From the NCBI GenBank assembly GCA_026398275.1, contig JAPLTF010000017.1:62001-126000 (forward strand): a DNA stretch of 64,000 nt. The letters run 5' to 3'. Shown piece after piece: positions 3,565-15,096 of the stretch. Position 1 is the first letter of the stretch. Each line of letters starts with the position of its first letter. This DNA comes from Verrucomicrobiota bacterium. Lineage in GTDB: Bacteria; Verrucomicrobiota; Verrucomicrobiia; Chthoniobacterales; Terrimicrobiaceae. The notes beneath the pieces were generated by a model. The model searched no databases and was not told the DNA's origin. It saw only the letters and a program-made list of their open reading frames with translations. The translations under genes were made by a program, and so were the position numbers.

Positions 3565-3804
3565 ATGAACGTGTCGCTGACTCCCGAGTTGGAAAACGCC
3601 GTCAAGGCGAAGGTCGCATCCGGGCTCTACAACAACGCCAGCGAAATCATCCGCGAGGCCCTGCGGGAATCTCTCCGGCGCGAGAGTGAAAACCAATGGC
3701 TCCAGCGCGAGGCGGCCATCGGGTTTGCGCAACTCGAAGCGGGCCAGGTCATACGGGTAAATTCCAAAAAGGAATTCCTGGCCGCGGTGCGCAAGAATCC
3801 GTGA
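3565..3804 (+). CDS. ParD-like antitoxin (ribbon-helix-helix)
   Basis: This 79-residue protein has the ParD pattern: an N-terminal beta strand (MNVSLTPELE), then helices with NNASEIIREALRESL, typical of dimeric RHH DNA-binding antitoxins, and a C-terminal tail that would wrap the toxin. The start at 3565 was preferred over an in-frame ATG at 3550 because it begins right at the conserved strand. The stop overlaps the next gene's GTG (GTGA), so toxin and antitoxin are translationally coupled. Such operons usually repress themselves through the RHH domain. The class is clear; the exact subfamily is not. Confidence 0.85.
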   Translation: MNVSLTPELENAVKAKVASGLYNNASEIIREALRESLRRESENQWLQREAAIGFAQLEAGQVIRVNSKKEFLAAVRKNP

Positions 3805-4103
3805 ATCTCGAACTCACCCACGCGGCGTTGGACGATCTCCGCTCGATCCGTGCCTATACGATCGACCAGTGGGGGCCGCCCCAGGAACAACAGTATCTGG
3901 ATCAAATCTGGAAAAAATTCGGGAGCATCCTCACGGATTCCTCGAAATTCCGGTTTCGCCAGGATCTCTTTCCCGGTTGCCAGATCGCGGCGGAAGGGAA
4001 GCATGTGATCCTCTTCCGGGTGCACAGATCCACTCTCCAGGTCGTGCGGGTCTTGCACGGTGCAATGGACTTCAAACGGCATATCCCGCCTGAGAACCTG
4101 TGA
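3801..4103 (+). CDS. ParE/RelE-family toxin
   Basis: This 100-residue protein starts at GTG 3801, overlapping the antitoxin stop by four bases. It shows the ParE fold pattern: a starting strand (NLELTHAALDDL), a helix with IRAYTIDQWG, a middle basic region (FRFRQDLFPGC) and the final strands HVILFRVH...VVRVLHGAMDF. ParE toxins act on DNA gyrase and RelE toxins cut mRNA on the ribosome; sequence alone favours ParE. With its partner it forms a complete type II toxin-antitoxin module next to the nrd genes. Confidence 0.85.
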   Translation: MNLELTHAALDDLRSIRAYTIDQWGPPQEQQYLDQIWKKFGSILTDSSKFRFRQDLFPGCQIAAEGKHVILFRVHRSTLQVVRVLHGAMDFKRHIPPENL

Positions 4104-6392: not shown

Positions 6393-7427
6393 CTATTTGA
6401 TCTCGCGGATTTTGCCTCCGGACTTGCGGACGATGGCGCTGAATTCCCGCTTGTCGTCGGGTTTCATCTCGAATCCGATGAAGTGGATTTTGCAGCCCTC
6501 GGCGCCTTGGAGCGGGCCTTCGGTGACCTTTTCGATTTCCTTCCACGGGATATTTTCAATCGGGCCGGCCGCCTTCCACTGGAAGCTGGCGTCGGAGATC
6601 AGGAAGATGACATCCGGCTGCATCTTGGCGGCGATCTCGAGGACGCCGACGAGGCCCCGGGGGTTGCTGGCGACTTTTCCCGATGCGCCCATGGTGCCGG
6701 TTTCGACCCATTCGGTCTTGATCCATTCGAGGGCGGCCGCGCGGTTTTGATCCGTGGCGGGCACGAGCTCTTTGTTGAAAGGCTTGTAGTTTTGGGTGAA
6801 CTGGATGATGCCGAACCGGGCGCTGATCGGGAGCTTGCTGATGAGGTCGGACGTCTCCTCCTGGATTTTTGAGAGGGGCATGCCGGCGGCGGAGGCTTTG
6901 TTCACCACGCTGGTCGAGACATCGAAGATGAGGAGGATGCGTTTGCCGGTGGACTGGATGCCAAAAAAGCTCATGCCGGTTCCGCCTCCGAATCCGCCGC
7001 CCCCGGATCCTCCGGTGCCCATGCCGGTTCCGAGGCCGCCGGTGCCGGCGAGGCTCGATGTCTGGTCGGAAACGATCTCGCCCGGGTCGAGCGGCAGCAT
7101 CTGGTCCATGTCCATCTTCGGAAGCTCCGGAAGCGCGAACGCGGTGGGCCGGATGCTTTGCATTTTATCGTTGAAGCTGGGCTTCGGGGCCATGCCGTCG
7201 AACGAGGCCATGTTCATCTTGTGCTCGCGCTGCCTGGCCGGGAGCCGGATGTCGCGCGTGGCCTTGAACTCGGCCGGCGGCTCGGAGAGATACCTCGCGA
7301 CGATGACCACGCCCGCGACGATGCCGGCGGCGATGTGGATCCCGATGCTGATGAGGACCACGGTGATGATGATCCGCCGGATCCGTTTCTTCTGCGAGGG
7401 AGGGTTGTCCTGGAGGGCGGTTGTCAT
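6393..7427 (-). CDS. vWA-domain protein with a TonB-like N-terminal membrane anchor
   Basis: This 344-residue protein has one membrane segment near residues 19-44 containing S27-IGI-H31. That is the SxxxH pattern by which TonB touches ExbB/ExbD. A Pro/Met-rich then Gly-rich linker (about 48-155) follows, and then a von Willebrand A domain. The metal site is D169-x-S171-x-S173, with a later threonine (ETGTMG) and aspartate (FLISDAS). No TonB C-terminal domain is present. The start at 7427 overlaps the ExbD stop (ATGA). As the last gene of an ExbB-ExbD-ExbD operon it may be the moving output arm of the motor, carrying a vWA head instead of a receptor-binding domain. This role is inferred. Confidence 0.85.
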   Translation of the reverse strand: MTTALQDNPPSQKKRIRRIIITVVLISIGIHIAAGIVAGVVIVARYLSEPPAEFKATRDIRLPARQREHKMNMASFDGMAPKPSFNDKMQSIRPTAFALPELPKMDMDQMLPLDPGEIVSDQTSSLAGTGGLGTGMGTGGSGGGGFGGGTGMSFFGIQSTGKRILLIFDVSTSVVNKASAAGMPLSKIQEETSDLISKLPISARFGIIQFTQNYKPFNKELVPATDQNRAAALEWIKTEWVETGTMGASGKVASNPRGLVGVLEIAAKMQPDVIFLISDASFQWKAAGPIENIPWKEIEKVTEGPLQGAEGCKIHFIGFEMKPDDKREFSAIVRKSGGKIREIK

Positions 7428-7864
7428 TCCTCGTCTCCCGTGGCCCCGGCGAATGTCACGCCCTGGATGCCGGCCTCCGCGCACGCGTTGAGCACATCCA
7501 CCACCCGCTGGTGGGTGGCGGTGTCCGAGACATCCAGCGTGATGAGCGCCTGGCTCTTGTTCGCCTCCGACGACTCTCTGAACCGCTTCAGGGTCGAGAG
7601 CAGGGCGGGCAGATTTTTGTCATCCGGCTTGTCGAGCGCGAGGTCGTTGAGGACGATCTGGCCGTTGTCCTGGATCGCGATCCTCTGCTCGTCCGGGATG
7701 TCCAGCGATTCCTCCTGGGCGACCGTTCCCGGCAGGGTCATGCTCATGTCCGCCTCCGGCTTCACCGGCTTCGAGGTGAGGATGTAGAAGAAGAGGAGCA
7801 GGAAGCAGACATCGATCATCGGGGCGATCTGCAGTTCGATCTGCGGGTGTTCGGTCCGTTTCAT
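7424..7864 (-). CDS. exbD: ExbD/TolR-family protein (second copy)
   Basis: This 146-residue inner-membrane protein has a short cytoplasmic lead, one membrane helix (MIDVCFLLLFFYILTS) and a periplasmic domain. The functional aspartate for proton use is in APMIDV near residue 18. It overlaps its neighbours by four bases on both sides, so it is made together with the first ExbD and the vWA protein. Two different ExbD subunits in one operon are common in Verrucomicrobiota and Planctomycetes as I recall them. The periplasmic part differs clearly from the first copy, so they may form a mixed pair. Confidence 0.9.
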   Translation of the reverse strand: MKRTEHPQIELQIAPMIDVCFLLLFFYILTSKPVKPEADMSMTLPGTVAQEESLDIPDEQRIAIQDNGQIVLNDLALDKPDDKNLPALLSTLKRFRESSEANKSQALITLDVSDTATHQRVVDVLNACAEAGIQGVTFAGATGDEE

Positions 7865-8283
7865 TTCTGGATGACTCCGAAGATGACCTCGATGGCACCG
7901 GCCTCGCTGGCGATCGCCATGACTTCCTTGATTTTTTTGCCCGGGGTTTTGGAGTCCGCGCGGATGTAGAGCTTGAGCGGGGGAAAGTCCTTGAACCGCT
8001 GCTTGAGGTGGGCGGTGAGCTCCTTGGTGGTCATGGGGAGGCTGCCGCTGAAGAGCTGGCCCTTCTCGTCGATGTTGACGACGTCGCGCGCGCCCTCGTC
8101 CACCGGCACCCGGCCGGTCGCGGCGATCGGGACTTTGATGTCGAGGAGCTTTTCCCCCTTGGTGATCTTGCCCGCGAGCATGAAGAAGAACAGCAGGAGG
8201 AGGGTCACGTCGATCATCGGGGCGATCTGGAGACCGACCTCGTCCTGATGGACCCTGCGCATGCGTCTGCGGGAGGCGGACAT
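7861..8283 (-). CDS. exbD: ExbD/TolR-family protein (first copy)
   Basis: This 140-residue proton-channel partner of ExbB has a basic N-terminus (MSASRRRMRRVHQDEVG), the conserved LQIAPMIDVTLLLLFFFML membrane helix with its essential Asp, and a periplasmic domain ending in EVIFGVIQK. It starts 7 bases after the exbB stop and overlaps the next exbD by four bases. It is part of the motor that turns the proton gradient into movement of a TonB-like protein. Confidence 0.92.
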   Translation of the reverse strand: MSASRRRMRRVHQDEVGLQIAPMIDVTLLLLFFFMLAGKITKGEKLLDIKVPIAATGRVPVDEGARDVVNIDEKGQLFSGSLPMTTKELTAHLKQRFKDFPPLKLYIRADSKTPGKKIKEVMAIASEAGAIEVIFGVIQK

Positions 8284-8290
8284 GGTGGGA

Positions 8291-9121
8291 TTATTCGGCG
8301 GCCGCGTTCAGGGCGGGGTCGAGGTAGACCGTCTGCGAGGGCGGCGGGGTTCCGTGCGCCTCGCCCGTGAAGAGGTCCAGCATGTGCGAGAGCGTCTTGT
8401 GGGCGTCCGCCATGTTCGTGGTGAGCATCCCCCGGAAGAAGAAGTAGAGGAACATCGAGGGGATCGCCAGCAGCAGTCCGCCGCCGGTGGCGATGAGCGC
8501 CTCGCCGATGCCCTTCGCCAGGTCGGTGGCCTCGGCTTTTCCAGCCGTCAGGGCGCTGAAGCTCGTGATCATGCCCGCGACGGTGCCCAGGAGGCCGATC
8601 ATCGGAGCCAGGACGGCAAACGTGTTCAGGTAGTTCACGATGACCATCATCTTGGTCTCGGCGCGGAAGCAATCGTCCGCGACCGAATTTTCCATGGCGG
8701 CCTTGTTGAACATGTCGCGTTCAAAATTCGCCTTGGTGAGGGCGCCGGCGAGGACCTGGGTGAGGAGGCAGGGGTTCGCGTTGCAGAAATCGTAGGCCGC
8801 CTGGAGGTCGCGCTGGCTCATCACGTTGTTGAGGTGGGCGACCACGTTCGGGGGCATGAGCTTTCCCTTCCGGAACATGACCACGCAGTAGGCCCCGAGC
8901 GCCATGACCGAGACCGAGCAGAGCGCGATCAGGTGCATGATGGGGCCGCCGTCGCGGTAGAGGTCCAGCAGGCTCTTGCTGCTGGCCACGCCCATCGCGC
9001 TTGCGGTGGACGGCAGGAACGCCGCGAGGAGGGCCGCAACGACGACGAGCCACGGACACGATCCGCGCAGCCAGCTCCGGCGGAGCAGGGACTCAGGATT
9101 TTTTTGGTTTTTTGTTTTCAT
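8291..9121 (-). CDS. exbB: MotA/TolQ/ExbB proton channel protein
   Basis: This 276-residue protein has an N-terminal signal-like hydrophobic stretch (VVVAALLAAFLPSTASA) and three further membrane helices. The last two carry the family signature (APMIGLLGTVAGMITSF). ExbB pentamers enclose an ExbD dimer and form the proton-driven motor. The start at 9121 overlaps the previous gene's end by 29 bases. An extra N-terminal leader is common in ExbB variants outside Proteobacteria. No Tol/Pal or TonB gene is nearby, so the vWA protein in the same operon is the natural candidate partner. Confidence 0.92.
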   Translation of the reverse strand: MKTKNQKNPESLLRRSWLRGSCPWLVVVAALLAAFLPSTASAMGVASSKSLLDLYRDGGPIMHLIALCSVSVMALGAYCVVMFRKGKLMPPNVVAHLNNVMSQRDLQAAYDFCNANPCLLTQVLAGALTKANFERDMFNKAAMENSVADDCFRAETKMMVIVNYLNTFAVLAPMIGLLGTVAGMITSFSALTAGKAEATDLAKGIGEALIATGGGLLLAIPSMFLYFFFRGMLTTNMADAHKTLSHMLDLFTGEAHGTPPPSQTVYLDPALNAAAE

Positions 9122-10127
9122 GGGATTTTTTCTTTTCTTCGGTTGGTTTGTCGGGCTTGGCATTTTTTTCCGGTGGCGGCATCTCCTCTGCGCGGGCGTC
9201 TTTTTCCGGATCGATCGCGCGCTGGGCTTCCGGGAGGGAGGCGATGAATTCCTTGGCCGGGCCCGCGGGCTTCGTCTGCGGGTAGAGGCATGCGATATCG
9301 CGCGCGCACTCGAGGGCCTTCTGGCTTTCGCCCGTGAGAATGTAGATGCCGGCAGCCCCCCAGAGCCCGCGGGCGGCAGATTCGGATTCGGAGCCGGCGA
9401 AGAGGCTGGGGTAGAGATAGAGATCAAGGGCCTCGTTGTAGAGGCGGTGGCGTTCGGGGATGATGTTGATGTCCTCCTCCCAGCGCGGGTTGTCCTCGAG
9501 GAGCCTGCGCAGCGAGGTGTCCGAGGCGGAGGCGAGGATATATTTCGCCTCGATGAGCACGGCGGGATCCTCGGTCACGGACGAGAGTTCCAGGGCCTCG
9601 CGGATGGCGTCCTTGGCGTTCCCGGTGGCGACCATCGCGCGGAGCCGTCCCTGGCGGGCGGAGAGTTTGTCGGCGGGGTCCCATGCGCCGGCTTCCACCT
9701 TTTTGAAAAGTTCCAGTGCGCGGGTGGCCTTGGCGGGATCGCCGGTTTGGAGGAGCGCGCCGCCAAAAGCATTTGCGATGCGGGCGGCCGGCGAGCGGGG
9801 GACCGGGAGCCAGGGCTCTGCCTTGATCCAGCGGGACTCGATCTCCGGGATCTGTGCGGGCGTGGGCGATTTCAGGATGGCCTCGAGGGCGGGATCGGGG
9901 GCGAATTCAATGTAGTCCACGTCTTTGCGGGGGACCGAAACGGAGGCAGAGACTGGTGCCGCATTCGGGGCGGTGCCGGGAGGCGGGGGAAGCGGGACTT
10001 GAAGGCGGAACTGGACGTTGTCCAACCCGGCCACGCGACCGGGGCGCTTCTCGCCGCTTTTCATGAACAGGACATCTTGTGCGTGGAGCAGGGATGCCGT
10101 GAAAAGGAGGAGGAGAATGCGTTTCAT
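9093..10127 (-). CDS. Secreted protein of unknown function in the ExbBD operon
   Basis: This 344-residue protein has a signal peptide (MKRILLLLFTASLLHAQ), a small beta-rich start (VLFMKSGEKRPGRVAGLDNVQFRL) and then mostly helical sequence reminiscent of degenerate TPR pairs (for example ALELFKKVEAG, AKYILASASD). It ends in a Lys/Glu/Pro-rich tail. It overlaps the large TPR gene (ATGA, 10124-10127) and exbB, so it belongs to the same operon. It is probably periplasmic. I do not recognise a named family. Its position between a TPR scaffold and the motor suggests an accessory role. Confidence 0.75.
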   Translation of the reverse strand: MKRILLLLFTASLLHAQDVLFMKSGEKRPGRVAGLDNVQFRLQVPLPPPPGTAPNAAPVSASVSVPRKDVDYIEFAPDPALEAILKSPTPAQIPEIESRWIKAEPWLPVPRSPAARIANAFGGALLQTGDPAKATRALELFKKVEAGAWDPADKLSARQGRLRAMVATGNAKDAIREALELSSVTEDPAVLIEAKYILASASDTSLRRLLEDNPRWEEDINIIPERHRLYNEALDLYLYPSLFAGSESESAARGLWGAAGIYILTGESQKALECARDIACLYPQTKPAGPAKEFIASLPEAQRAIDPEKDARAEEMPPPEKNAKPDKPTEEKKKSHENKKPKKS

Positions 10128-12964
10128 CCCTGTGGTGCCTCCTCTTTGATCGGTCCGCCGAGCGCCTGGAGGCGGTCCTTTGCGAGTTGCGATTCCGGAA
10201 ATATTGCGAGGTCGTCCTTCGCCGCGAGCTCCTGATAAGTTTTGCGCGCGCTTGGGGTGTCCTTCAATTTTTCAAAGGCCTCGCCGCTGCGGAAGTAGGC
10301 CTTTGCGACCCATTCGCCCCAGCGTCCGTGCATCACGTAGATCCTTTGGAAATACGGCACGGCGAGCTCCGGTTTTCCGTCCGCCATGTGGATCTCGCCG
10401 ATCCGGTAGAGGGCCTCGGCCTTTTCGCTGCCGGTGGAATACTTGTTGGCGAGAACTGCCTCCAGGGCGGCCAGCGCCTTGGTTTTGTCGCCGCGCTTTT
10501 GCAGGAGCCCGGCCTTGGCGAGCAGGACGCGGCCGAAGACGAGGGACCCGAGGGTTTCTTTTTCGAAGCGGTCAAACTTCTCCAGGGCGACGCGCTCGTG
10601 GCCGCGCTCCATCTCGAGGAAGCCGAGATTCGCGAGGGCGCGATCTTTTTGCGGGGCGCGCGGGTTCCACTTCACCAGGTCGAGAGACATCTGCTCGCCC
10701 TCCTTTTCCTGACCCGAGGCCAGCAGTGCCTCGGCAAAGTCGGCGAGAAGCTGCGGGTTTGTCGTCTGCACGTTGGCGAGTTTCGAGGCCTCGCAGAGAA
10801 GTTTGCGCGAGGCTTCGGGGTCCGACTTTTTCAGCCCCGCAGCCTGCGCCCAGAGCGCGCGCATGGTCAGAGTCTTTTTGCCGGATTTTTCCGCATCCTG
10901 CTGGAGGTCGCGGAGGAGGGCCTGATACTGCGCGGGGCCTTCCTCGCCTTTGTAGAGCCTTGAAAGGCCCGGGAAGAGGTCCTCGACCGAGCGGATCGAC
11001 GGGTCGTCGCCGTATTCCCGGATCGCGTCCCAGTAGACATCCCGCGCCTTTTCCGGCTTCTCCTTCTGGCGGTAAACCCAGCCGATATTGAAGATGGCCT
11101 CCGCCACCCGCGGGCTGCGGGGGCTGTCCTTCTGGAAGTCGCGCATCAGGTCGAGGTAGCGGTCGTATTCCTCCATGAGCTTGAGCGCCTTGCCGGTTTT
11201 GAAGACCCCCTCCTCGCGGAACTGCGTGTCCGATTTCGCAATGCCCTTGAAGGCGGCGATCCCTTCCTCCATCTCGCCCTCGTTCATCAGGGCATCGCCG
11301 AGCAGGATGCGGGCCTCGCCGGTTTCCTCATGCCCGGGATAGGCGCGCATGAACGCTCGGAGCTCCTTGATGCTGGTTTTGTAGTCCTCGAGCTGCTGCG
11401 CGCAATAGGCTTTGCGGAACACGGCGTTCCCCGCGTATTGGCCGTCCTTGTATTTTTTCAGGCAGTCATCCATCGCGTCCCGCGATTTTTCAAACTGCTT
11501 GTCCAGAGAGTAGCCCATGCCGCGCCAGTAGGCCGCGGCCCCGCCCATCTCGTGCGACGGATATTTTTTTCCAAACTTCTCGAACACCTCGATCGCCTCC
11601 CTGTTTTTTTCCGCGAGCAAAAGCGTGAACCCCTTCATGAAAAGCGCCCTTGGCGCAAAGTCGGAATCCCCTTTCTGGAGCTGGTCGAAGGCGGCGATGG
11701 ATTCGTCAAACCGCAGGTCCTTTTGCGCGGCCATGCCGGCGAGGTATTCGACCATCGGGAGGCTGGATGAGTCGGGGAATTTGGCGGCGAACGCCTTCGC
11801 GGCCTCCGTCACCTTCGGCCACCGTTCGATCTCGAACCATGCCTGGACGAGGTTGACCGAAGCGCGCTCGACGATCTTGTCCGGCGGCATCCGTTCGAGC
11901 ATGTCCTCGAGGATGAGCGCCGCCTCGCGGTAGCGCTTCATGGCCTGGTAGGCGGTGGCCAGGCGCATGCGCAGGGCGGCGTCGAAGCTCTGGATCTTCT
12001 GGAAGCTTTCGACTTCGCGCTTCACTTTCTGGATGAGCTGGGCGAGGAGAAATTTGGCGTAGGGATCGCCCTTGGGAGTCGCCTCGGCGGCCTGAAGCCG
12101 GCGCTGGAGCTCCACCAGCCGGGCCTGCTGGTGCTTGAGGAGCCGGTCCGACGGCCAGACCCGCTGAAGGCAGGCGATCGCCTTGCGGTATTCCCCCGCC
12201 TCGAGCCACCGGTTGCCGAGTTCCAGCGCCAGGCTCTGGAACGTCACCAGCTGGGTGAGGTCGCCCATCCGCGGAAATTCCTCCTCGATCACCTTCATGG
12301 CCGCCTCGTTTTGATCGTCCTCCAAAAGCGAGTAGAGCTGGAGGATAACCGCCCGCGAGCGGTTTTCCGGGATCATCCCCGCCTTGATGCTCTCGTAATA
12401 CGCGGCGGCTTCCTTGTATTTTTCATCGAGGAGAAACGCCGAGCCGATGAGGATCCGGGCCTCGGGGATCTTCATGGCCGCGGGGTATTGCTGGATATAG
12501 GCGGGGTTCCTTTCCGCTCCGGGAGGGAAGAGGGTCAGGAATTTTTCCAGGGCCTCGCGGGCCCCGGAATAATTTTTGTCCTCCATGTTCGCGACCCCGA
12601 GCCAGAACTGGAGTTCCTGGACCTCCGAGGCCTGGAGCGGCGGCTGCTGCTGGAGGGCGGTCTGGATCGGCTCGATCGCATCGCCGAACTTTTTCATGTG
12701 GACGTAGCACATGGCATGGCGGTAGCGGATGTTGCGGATCGCCTCGGCCGCCTCCTTCGACTGGCCGAAATCGGTCAGAAGTTTCTTGTAAAGGTCCGCG
12801 GCCTCGGGGTATTTGCCACCGACGAAAAGCCGCTCCGCGTTGGCGTAATATTCCTGCGCGGTCAGCCCTTGAGGTTGGATCCCCCCCTGTGCCATGCTCC
12901 CACAGGCGAGCAGGAAAGCTGCCGCCGCCAGGGCCAGATTGGGGAACGCAGAAAAAAGTTTCAC
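10124..12964 (-). CDS. Large secreted tetratricopeptide-repeat protein (946 aa)
   Basis: This protein begins with a signal peptide (LALAAAAFLLACGSMAQ) that could also be a lipoprotein signal, with Cys in LLACGS. About twenty TPR-like helix pairs follow across nearly the whole length (for example YYANAERLFVGGKYPEAADLYKK and ALYRIGEIHMADGKPELAVPYF). TPR arrays of this kind, similar to YbgF/CpoB and BamD-like proteins, hold envelope complexes together. It is the first gene of the operon running through the secreted protein, ExbB, two ExbD and the vWA protein. It probably provides the periplasmic scaffold; its substrate is unknown. Confidence 0.88.
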   Translation of the reverse strand: MKLFSAFPNLALAAAAFLLACGSMAQGGIQPQGLTAQEYYANAERLFVGGKYPEAADLYKKLLTDFGQSKEAAEAIRNIRYRHAMCYVHMKKFGDAIEPIQTALQQQPPLQASEVQELQFWLGVANMEDKNYSGAREALEKFLTLFPPGAERNPAYIQQYPAAMKIPEARILIGSAFLLDEKYKEAAAYYESIKAGMIPENRSRAVILQLYSLLEDDQNEAAMKVIEEEFPRMGDLTQLVTFQSLALELGNRWLEAGEYRKAIACLQRVWPSDRLLKHQQARLVELQRRLQAAEATPKGDPYAKFLLAQLIQKVKREVESFQKIQSFDAALRMRLATAYQAMKRYREAALILEDMLERMPPDKIVERASVNLVQAWFEIERWPKVTEAAKAFAAKFPDSSSLPMVEYLAGMAAQKDLRFDESIAAFDQLQKGDSDFAPRALFMKGFTLLLAEKNREAIEVFEKFGKKYPSHEMGGAAAYWRGMGYSLDKQFEKSRDAMDDCLKKYKDGQYAGNAVFRKAYCAQQLEDYKTSIKELRAFMRAYPGHEETGEARILLGDALMNEGEMEEGIAAFKGIAKSDTQFREEGVFKTGKALKLMEEYDRYLDLMRDFQKDSPRSPRVAEAIFNIGWVYRQKEKPEKARDVYWDAIREYGDDPSIRSVEDLFPGLSRLYKGEEGPAQYQALLRDLQQDAEKSGKKTLTMRALWAQAAGLKKSDPEASRKLLCEASKLANVQTTNPQLLADFAEALLASGQEKEGEQMSLDLVKWNPRAPQKDRALANLGFLEMERGHERVALEKFDRFEKETLGSLVFGRVLLAKAGLLQKRGDKTKALAALEAVLANKYSTGSEKAEALYRIGEIHMADGKPELAVPYFQRIYVMHGRWGEWVAKAYFRSGEAFEKLKDTPSARKTYQELAAKDDLAIFPESQLAKDRLQALGGPIKEEAPQG

Positions 12965-13048: not shown

Positions 13049-14041
13049 GTGCAACAAAGCAATAACTATGCCGCGCTGGAGAGGAGGGTTTCCCTCTGGA
13101 TGGCTTCCGGTTGCGGACAATTCGAGCAGTGGATCCTTGAGGTCCACAATTTTCAGCGCGGGCACAATCCGGCCTACGCGGACTTTTGCGCCGGATTTCC
13201 GGATCCCGTGGACTGGAGGGACATCCCGGCAGTTCCAGTCTCCGCCTTCAAGACGGCGGATCTGAGATGCTTTCCTGAAGAGAAGACGATCCGGACATTT
13301 GAGACGAGCGGAACGACCGGCGGCCAGCCCGGGAGGCACCATTTCTGCTCATTGTCATTGTATCTGCAGTCCGCGGTGCGCGGATGGATCGGGGCCGGGC
13401 TTCCCACGAGCGGGGTGGTTTCCCTCATTCCGCACAACAGCGAGGCACCCGGCTCCTCGCTGAGCCAGATGGCATCCTGGCTGGCTCCCAAGAGCCGGTT
13501 TTACTTCAACAGGCGCGAGGAACTGATCGAGTGGCTGAGGATCTCGCCTCGCGCGGTCCTGTTTGGCACGGCTCTGGCGTTCCTGGATCTTTTTCTATGG
13601 ATGGGCAACCAGAAGATCACCCTGCCCGAGGGAAGCCTTGCGGTGGAGACCGGCGGCTACAAGGGGACGCGGCGCGAATTGCCCAAGAGCGATCTCTACC
13701 GACTCTTCCACGATCGGCTTGGACTGGCGCCGGATTCGGTGTGGAATGAATACGGCATGACCGAACTCAGCTCCCAGTTTTACACCAGAGGCCTTGGCAA
13801 CCCTCACTGGGCCCCGCCGTGGGCAAGGGGGGTGGTCGTTGATCCCGTGTCGGGAAGAGAGGTTGTCGACGGAGAGACGGGAATCCTCCGTCTCTTTGAT
13901 GCGGCGAACCTCGGTTCGGTCTGCGCGATTCAGACCCGCGACCTTGCGATCCGGCGCGGGGCGGACTTTGAATTGATCGGCCGCGACCCGGCCGCGCTGC
14001 CGAGGGGATGTTCGCTCGCGGCGGACGAGCTGCTTTCATGA
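13049..14041 (+). CDS. luxE: LuxE-like acyl-protein synthetase
   Basis: This 330-residue adenylate-forming enzyme of the LuxE/PaaK type activates a fatty acid as acyl-AMP and hands it to its reductase partner. The AMP-binding motif TSGTTGG lies near residues 87-93. A later block (WNEYGMTELSSQF) matches the ligase core motif YGMTE. The start is GTG at 13049. Its last codons overlap the next gene (ATGA). It runs divergently from the TPR/ExbBD operon. With the LuxC homologue next door it probably forms a fatty-acid reductase, although no luciferase or LuxD is present. Confidence 0.85.
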   Translation: MQQSNNYAALERRVSLWMASGCGQFEQWILEVHNFQRGHNPAYADFCAGFPDPVDWRDIPAVPVSAFKTADLRCFPEEKTIRTFETSGTTGGQPGRHHFCSLSLYLQSAVRGWIGAGLPTSGVVSLIPHNSEAPGSSLSQMASWLAPKSRFYFNRREELIEWLRISPRAVLFGTALAFLDLFLWMGNQKITLPEGSLAVETGGYKGTRRELPKSDLYRLFHDRLGLAPDSVWNEYGMTELSSQFYTRGLGNPHWAPPWARGVVVDPVSGREVVDGETGILRLFDAANLGSVCAIQTRDLAIRRGADFELIGRDPAALPRGCSLAADELLS

Positions 14042-15096
14042 ACACGGCCGACCGCGCATCGGCGCTGGCCGTGGCGGCCGCGCAATTTCCGGAGCTCTCT
14101 CCCCCGACGGCGAGGGACATGCTCGAGTGCGTCCGGCTCGAGCTCGGGCACGAGGAAATTCTGGACGGGTTTCAGTTCTACGGCGGCCACCTGTCGCGGG
14201 CGCTCGCGCCGCGGACCATCCTGCACATCCTGAGCGGGAATACGCCGCACGCCGCGTTTCAAACGATTCTGCGAGGGCTCCTCCTCGGTTCCCACAACCT
14301 TGTGAAATTTCCCTCCGGCGGACTCGGGAGGATCGAGGGCGTTGCGGATTTTTTGCCGCCCGAACTTTCCGCGAAGCTGGAATGCTCCCGGCAGCTTGGG
14401 GAGGGCTGGATTGAGCGGGCGGAGGCATGGGTGGTCTTCGGGAGCGATGCGACGGTGGAGGAATTCCGCGCGAAGTGCCCGCCGCAGATTCCCTTCCAGG
14501 CCCACGGTCACCGGATCAGCATGGCGGTCGTCCTCGAGGATCCGGAGCTGCGGTCCTGCGCGGCGGCTGCGCGGGATGTCTCGCTGTTCGAACAGCAGGG
14601 ATGCCTTTCGCCCCAGGTGATCTTTGTCGGGGACGATGCCTCGCGCTACGCCGCCGCGCTGGCGCAGGAGATGGAGAAATTTGAGCTGACGGCCCCCGCA
14701 CCCGCTCTGCCGCTGGCGGCGCAGGCGGAGATCGCCGGCGCGCGTGCGGACTGGGAATTTCGCGCGTCGGGGGACAGCGGCATCAAAGTCTGGAAGGGTG
14801 CGGGCTGGACGGTCGTGCTGGAGAACGGTGGGAATTTCCCCGTCTCGCCATTGAACAGGTTTGTCTTCGTCAAACCGCTGCCGGTTGATCTGATGCCGGT
14901 CCTGGGAAAATTTTCCGGCCACCTCGGGGGTTTGGGTCTCTGGCCGGGGACGCCCGGGAATGCGGCGCAGTTTTCCGGGGCCGGGTTTTCACGGATTTCC
15001 CCGATTGGCCGGATGCAGGAAACGCCCTTCACCTGGCACTCCGATTCCCGACAAAATCTCGCCTCCCTTGTGCGATGGGTTGATTTCGGGCCGTGA
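14038..15096 (+). CDS. luxC: LuxC-like acyl-CoA/acyl-protein reductase
   Basis: This 352-residue protein of the aldehyde dehydrogenase superfamily reduces an activated acyl group to an aldehyde with NADPH. The catalytic cysteine is C189 in the conserved QQGCLSPQ. The N-terminal region carries HILSGNTPHAAF and the C-terminal part GRMQETPF, both typical of LuxC. The start at 14038 overlaps the luxE stop by four bases, so the two are co-translated. The aldehyde could be reduced to fatty alcohol or used in lipid or wax chemistry. That is inference, because no downstream partner is encoded here. Confidence 0.85.
   Translation: MNTADRASALAVAAAQFPELSPPTARDMLECVRLELGHEEILDGFQFYGGHLSRALAPRTILHILSGNTPHAAFQTILRGLLLGSHNLVKFPSGGLGRIEGVADFLPPELSAKLECSRQLGEGWIERAEAWVVFGSDATVEEFRAKCPPQIPFQAHGHRISMAVVLEDPELRSCAAAARDVSLFEQQGCLSPQVIFVGDDASRYAAALAQEMEKFELTAPAPALPLAAQAEIAGARADWEFRASGDSGIKVWKGAGWTVVLENGGNFPVSPLNRFVFVKPLPVDLMPVLGKFSGHLGGLGLWPGTPGNAAQFSGAGFSRISPIGRMQETPFTWHSDSRQNLASLVRWVDFGP

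Follow-up and report, generated by a model that had tools for sequence, protein, structure and literature searches.

A probable proton-driven ExbBD-type motor operon of Verrucomicrobiota with a vWA-ended transducer and exchanged end domains among its relatives

Introduction

What does an ExbBD-type motor move when its transducer ends in a von Willebrand A (vWA) domain in place of the TonB or TolA C-terminal domain? The question arises from a six-gene operon in a stretch of 64,000 nucleotides from a Verrucomicrobiota bacterium (contig JAPLTF010000017.1, positions 62,001 to 126,000; hereafter the window). The standard examples of such envelope motors are Ton and Tol. In the window operon, the genes of an ExbB, two ExbDs and a TonB-like arm follow those of a tetratricopeptide repeat (TPR) protein and a secreted protein. 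The operon probably encodes a heterodimeric inner-membrane motor driven by the proton-motive force, with exchangeable output arms and separate from Ton and Tol. The source genome, 4.66 Mb in size, carries the operon on one of its contigs, and the closest named orthologues (72-77% identity) include metagenome-assembled genomes (MAGs) labelled Chthoniobacter and Verrucomicrobiaceae; strains of Verrucomicrobium and Luteolibacter are cultured relatives that have the operon.

vWA force transducers with TolA/TonB topology were described in 2025 by Williams-Jones et al. in Mol Biol Evol (PMC12204202). The window operon is a new member of this published class. New here are the conservation of all six genes, two ExbD lineages of fixed order, a conserved anchor His with its ExbB Ser partner, exchanged end domains, and a clade with a split operon in which Gln stands for the anchor His (the Gln clade).

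A conserved set of six genes

On the minus strand, the operon runs from 12964 to 6393 in the order TPR, secreted, ExbB, ExbD1, ExbD2 and anchor-vWA (Table 1). An earlier note on this DNA had described an ExbBD operon with a TPR and a secreted gene in front; all six genes are there, and the Pfam matches to ExbB and both ExbDs bear out their identities. Start and stop codons overlap by 4 nt (ATGA) at the TPR/secreted, ExbD1/ExbD2 and ExbD2/vWA junctions.

Among 80 named orthologue loci, 61 contain more than 5.5 kb upstream and can be tested for the full set. TPR, secreted, ExbB and two ExbD genes precede the vWA gene in 54 of these 61, so the operon is not a chance arrangement. The anchor profile finds matches in 117 of 388 genomes and 73 of 199 genera of the phylum. 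No relatives were found among viral contigs, and since the anti-phage models of PADLOC match none of the six proteins, a Zorya-like defence motor is without support and was rejected. At two MAG loci (L224, L225), the TPR and secreted genes lead directly to the vWA gene; ExbB and the ExbDs are missing between them and the anchor His is kept. At locus L266, outside the anchor profile matches, the product encoded after ExbB-ExbD-ExbD is 501 aa long and has an anchor that resembles Ser-x3-His.

The two leading proteins are both of TPR type. In the TPR protein of the window, LLAC precedes the cut site; the motif is absent from most orthologue N-termini, and we rejected a conserved lipoprotein for this reason. 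The secreted protein has no match in a Pfam search. Its AlphaFold2 (AF2) model (mean predicted local distance difference test, pLDDT, of 88) predicts an N-terminal beta domain of five strands (18-74), a TPR-like helical solenoid (79-315) and a Lys/Pro-rich tail, and the best Foldseek matches to the model are TPR proteins (E 0.003).

Motor and anchor residues

Residues S69, T180, T212 and P221 of the window ExbB correspond to S34, T148, T181 and P190 of E. coli ExbB and are invariant in all 14 aligned sequences, E. coli ExbB and TolQ included. Both ExbDs keep the proton-carrying Asp in alignment with E. coli ExbD and TolR. The ExbB Thr ring (T180, T212) and the ExbD Asp of ExbBD/TolQR motors are thus present. 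First-position and second-position ExbDs, 44 of each, separate into two lineages, each with a single change of label (0/500 shuffles); in a smaller, careful tree they are parted at 98/96. As these are separate lineages and not recent copies, we suggest from the sequences that ExbD1 and ExbD2 form a dedicated heterodimer.

The TonB-type anchor with S27-x3-H31 reported in the earlier note is found in the transmembrane (TM) helix of the arm when residues are counted from the ATG at 7427, as we do throughout; the open reading frame listing places the start at an upstream GTG (7484). The full SHLS motif, S-x3-H-x6-L-x3-S, is not present, with Ala at 38 and Ile at 42 and only S27 and H31 retained. 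A long alignment of the anchor to TolA produced a false gap and was not used. In cryo-electron microscopy structures of the E. coli complexes, TonB S16/H20 lie against ExbB S34/W38, which are linked to P190 (PMC12215075). Published AF3 models of the vWA transducer class place the His of the anchor at the edge of the motor (PMC12204202). Conservation of S27/H31 in orthologues had been proposed as a check; the His is retained in 69 of the 71 readable motor-linked copies of the window type, with loci L218 and L249 as exceptions. Across the wider phylum set it is present in 47/48 linked copies, and the remaining one (L151) adjoins an unrelated ExbB-ExbD pair.

The vWA domain and its metal site

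A conserved box directly after the TM helix is followed by a Gly-rich linker. In the AF2 monomer, confidence is low for residues 117-149, and pLDDT exceeds 90 across most of residues 150-344. No TonB/TolA C-terminal domain is present, and a predicted vWA fold takes its place. The Pfam vWA match is below cutoff (E 0.059), a phmmer search of PDB sequences with the arm protein gives no match, and a PDB search with the arm profile gives a weak vWA match only. The model superimposes on the vWA domain of inter-alpha-inhibitor heavy chain 1 (6fpy) with a Z score of 17.4 and a root-mean-square deviation of 2.2 over 156 residues (VIA-align). On this predicted structure we are certain of the vWA fold.

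The earlier note had also assigned an intact metal site to the domain. This part does not hold. D169, S171, S173 and D279 are near-invariant among 81 window-type sequences (81, 78, 79 and 81, respectively), but the Thr position of the metal ion-dependent adhesion site (MIDAS), assigned from the sequence pattern and not from a solved structure as the sixth residue before L263, is Arg257 in the window. Thr is found there in 15 of the 81 orthologues and Asn, Gln, Lys or Pro in most others, so that the MIDAS-type site DxSxS...T...D as a whole is not present. Elsewhere in the phylum there are motor-linked clades in which DxSxS itself has decayed to DANKL, DASKY, DASRM or DTSRD and the last Asp is missing.

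These observations bear on the reading in which the vWA domain acts in the manner of metal-dependent adhesion domains, gripping its ligand via the MIDAS while the motor pulls the domain. In the window clade, some residual metal binding is possible, given its four near-invariant residues and the orthologues with Thr. With Thr missing in most sequences and DxSxS and the last Asp lost in several motor-linked clades, a metal bridge to the ligand cannot be the common mechanism, and pulling through an intact metal site, as first proposed, is not supported. Since PA14-like domains can in addition stand in for vWA, we regard this reading as quite improbable.

Exchange of the end domain

Proteins that lack a vWA domain can carry the same anchor and the box after the TM helix. 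In genome G167, which has the gene order of the window, TPR, secreted, ExbB, ExbD and ExbD are followed by a single product, an anchor with a PA14-like domain (locus L065). One motor in genome G012 (L092) is followed by two arms with near-identical anchor and linker, one ending in vWA and one in PA14 (24.7 bits, cutoff 24.0). SAM domains (2.2e-18, 3.7e-16) precede both anchors on the cytoplasmic, N-terminal side and might cluster motors from there. vWA and PA14 arms adjoin at L078 and L142 as well, and the PA14-like arms of L065, L092, L078 and L142 all carry the anchor His. Among a dozen PA14-like arms seen, 5/7 aligned end domains match Pfam PA14 at E <= 0.05, and a profile of these ends retrieves the PDB protein Vip4Da1 over 48 positions (E 0.0014).

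A third end type, an alpha toroid like that of squalene-hopene cyclase, is found in genomes G023, G190 and G015 (one copy scores 28.3 bits with the cutoff at 26.1, another scores lower). A TPR-ExbB-ExbD-ExbD cluster stands without an arm in all three, and G190 and G015 have no anchor match other than the toroid arm. At least 10 scored anchors per genome, mostly away from motor genes, occur in seven genomes of family f24 (G035, G050, G087, G160, G228, G248, G384) and in G081; the f24 genomes have several arm-less motor clusters alongside. By sequence, putative arms are greatly expanded in these genomes. The simplest reading is one motor common to exchangeable arms, in which distant arms would also use these motors. 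In the open-licence full text searched, no report was found of PA14-like or toroid arms, of the split Gln clade or of the lost MIDAS Thr, and no open-licence paper was found that joins ExbD, PA14, TonB and Planctomycetes.

The Gln clade and points against the motor reading

Several findings weigh against a motor-driven arm. Eleven vWA copies without adjacent motor genes carry Gln for the anchor His and Ala for the Ser. Locus L218 is a full operon with Val for the His, and at L249 both His and Gln are missing. The published contact network includes Trp38 of ExbB, a residue that is not conserved and is replaced by Met73 in the window.

The Gln copies form one clade (82/73), sister (100/99) to the clade of six operon-type proteins that contains the window. 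Six of the 11 loci have a common neighbour gene, DUF374 in those scanned. In the six genomes examined, TPR followed by ExbB is found at one further locus and a lone ExbD pair at another, and these ExbD pairs form their own clades inside the first and second ExbD lineages. The operon of the Gln clade is split over three loci and not lost. We therefore rejected the clade as a motorless control. Orthologues lacking the SxxxH pattern, which the earlier note had set against its own proposal, thus exist in one sister clade; they weaken the proposal and do not refute it, because their genomes retain TPR, ExbB and an ExbD pair. Either Gln replaces His in the contact or the coupling has changed. A Fisher test of His against motor linkage gives p 0.0006, which is not independent evidence because the Gln copies form one clade; we draw no statistics from what is one evolutionary event. 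The L249 operon (Puniceicoccaceae) is rearranged to TPR, secreted, ExbB, vWA, ExbD, ExbD, possibly an intermediate on the way to the Gln clade.

In another reading, the arm is no force transducer but an assembly factor or a scaffold, tethered in the periplasm and only docked on ExbBD, with the motor serving the TPR proteins or another partner. The Gln clade, which retains the kit without His and Ser, would fit this, as would L224 and L225, where no motor genes adjoin, and the lack of a known phenotype. Against it, the His is strongly retained in linked copies, the box after the TM helix is present in all output types, and the examined genomes with orphaned arms have separate motor clusters. 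We consider a docked scaffold unlikely. The occurrence of arm-less motor clusters in the same genomes as orphaned arms supports the reading in which motor and arm are coupled.

Comparison with known systems

Compared with the Williams-Jones class, the window matches the TM Ser/His of SHLS, the disordered Gly-Pro-rich linker and the vWA end, as well as the gene order TPR, tolQ-like, two heterologous tolR-like, vWA, and differs in nothing essential. The second gene (beta plus TPR), the loss of the MIDAS Thr, the split Gln clade and the PA14-like and alpha-toroid ends were not found in the searched passages of that paper. The second family of the same paper, the TPH-vWA proteins, is described there as paired with tolQ only, with vWA in place of ExbD inside the pore (PMC12204202); as far as this description goes, a vWA driven by a TolQ-type pentamer is shared, whereas the window has two ExbDs and a Ser/His anchor.

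With E. coli TonB-ExbBD and TolA-TolQR the operon shares a homologous motor, the Asp/Thr proton path, the Ser-x3-His anchor and the ExbB Ser contact residue. It differs in having no TonB/TolA C-terminal domain, two distinct ExbDs and TPR proteins in the operon, and in the Trp38 position of ExbB. A divergent Tol-Pal or Ton system that lost its usual end domain could be considered on the basis of the homology of ExbB/ExbD to TolQR/ExbBD and of the TPR gene next door, which recalls CpoB in tol-pal. It is very improbable given the lack of a TonB_C domain, the two ExbDs and the absence of TolB and Pal from the operon. The window genome further contains ten ExbD-type matches, among them an ExbBD beside a TonB_C protein (C32:152489 and 153516), and a PD40 beta-propeller protein elsewhere. 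As this genome has its own TonB_C protein with another ExbBD, the operon is an addition to and not a replacement of Ton, and the claim of a machine distinct from Ton and Tol is supported.

Like the window operon, the AglRQS-Glt gliding machine of Myxococcus combines one TolQ-like and two TolR-like motor proteins with a vWA protein, the adhesin CglB. Unlike the window arm, CglB resides in the outer membrane and is not fused to a motor anchor.

A second ExbB-ExbD-ExbD cluster of the window genome (contig C111, L082) has a beta+TPR-like secreted protein in front and, downstream, an AsmA-like protein recognized by eye without a Pfam match; no His-anchored arm and no TPR giant were found at this cluster. 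In the window itself, a LuxE-type acyl-protein synthetase (33.3 bits, cutoff 24.9) adjoins a LuxC acyl-CoA reductase (5.9e-41) divergently from the operon, and a ParE-type toxin domain (4.1e-13) is also present.

Table 1. Coordinates of the operon genes, of neighbouring window features and of related loci (locus coordinates refer to the locus named)
Feature	Position	Strand	Length	Evidence or remark
TPR protein	10124..12964	-	946 aa	GTG start, secretion signal; Pfam TPR_6 9.8e-34
Secreted protein	9093..10127	-	344 aa	AF2 and Foldseek; predicted beta domain and TPR-like solenoid
ExbB/TolQ-like proton channel	8291..9121	-	276 aa	Pfam PF01618 4.9e-22; alignment with E. coli ExbB/TolQ
ExbD1	7861..8283	-	140 aa	Pfam PF02472 1.5e-18; proton-carrying Asp D25 kept; first lineage
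ExbD2	7424..7864	-	146 aa	Pfam PF02472 6.4e-18; same proton-carrying Asp kept; second lineage
TonB-like transducer	6393..7427	-	344 aa	TM helix 12-47, box and linker 48-149, vWA domain 150-344
LuxE-type and LuxC genes	13049-15096	+		
ParE-type toxin domain	3696-4103	+		
PA14-like arm, L065	7471-8661			
Two arms with SAM domains, L092	9229-12241			PA14 arm at 10643-12241
PA14-like arm, L078	4345-6315			
Adjoining PA14 arm, L142	7218-9107			
Toroid arm, L132	9555-12833			His-anchored
Toroid arm, L133	5337-6989			His-anchored
Toroid arm, L134	619-2133			His-anchored
Rearranged operon, L249	5063-11916			
ExbB-ExbD-ExbD and 501-aa protein, L266	4483-7606			
Second motor cluster of window genome, L082	8794-11410			

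Proposed mechanism and meaning

We infer complex formation, the 5:2 stoichiometry, force, partner and physiological task alike, and the following steps are meant in this sense. Five ExbB subunits would surround an ExbD1-ExbD2 heterodimer and form a 5:2 motor. His31 would dock the single-helix, TonB/TolA-like arm laterally on ExbB. Protons passing the ExbD Asp and the ExbB Thr ring would turn or shift the ExbD pair, which would then act on the arm so that its vWA end is pulled or moved in the periplasm. The partner of the vWA domain is most likely a protein at the peptidoglycan or outer membrane, bound by the surface of the vWA fold and not by a metal bridge; the likeliest candidates for partners or scaffold are the operon's own pair of periplasmic TPR proteins.

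Beyond the single operon, there may be a general-purpose periplasmic motor, in which one ExbB-ExbD1-ExbD2 unit with its TPR scaffold drives His-anchored arms with unrelated ends, sometimes several per genome, each with its own envelope target; we hold this to be plausible, slightly short of an even chance. Any specific task of the machine, such as envelope maintenance or surface adhesion and motility-like work, is a tentative and rather doubtful assignment.

The tandem vWA and PA14 arms with near-identical anchors, together with the Gln clade, are natural experiments on the His contact and on what is selected by the end domain. If the proposal is true, this would be a third, widespread kind of motor with swappable arm ends, and proton-driven force in the periplasm would do more than nutrient uptake and outer-membrane upkeep.

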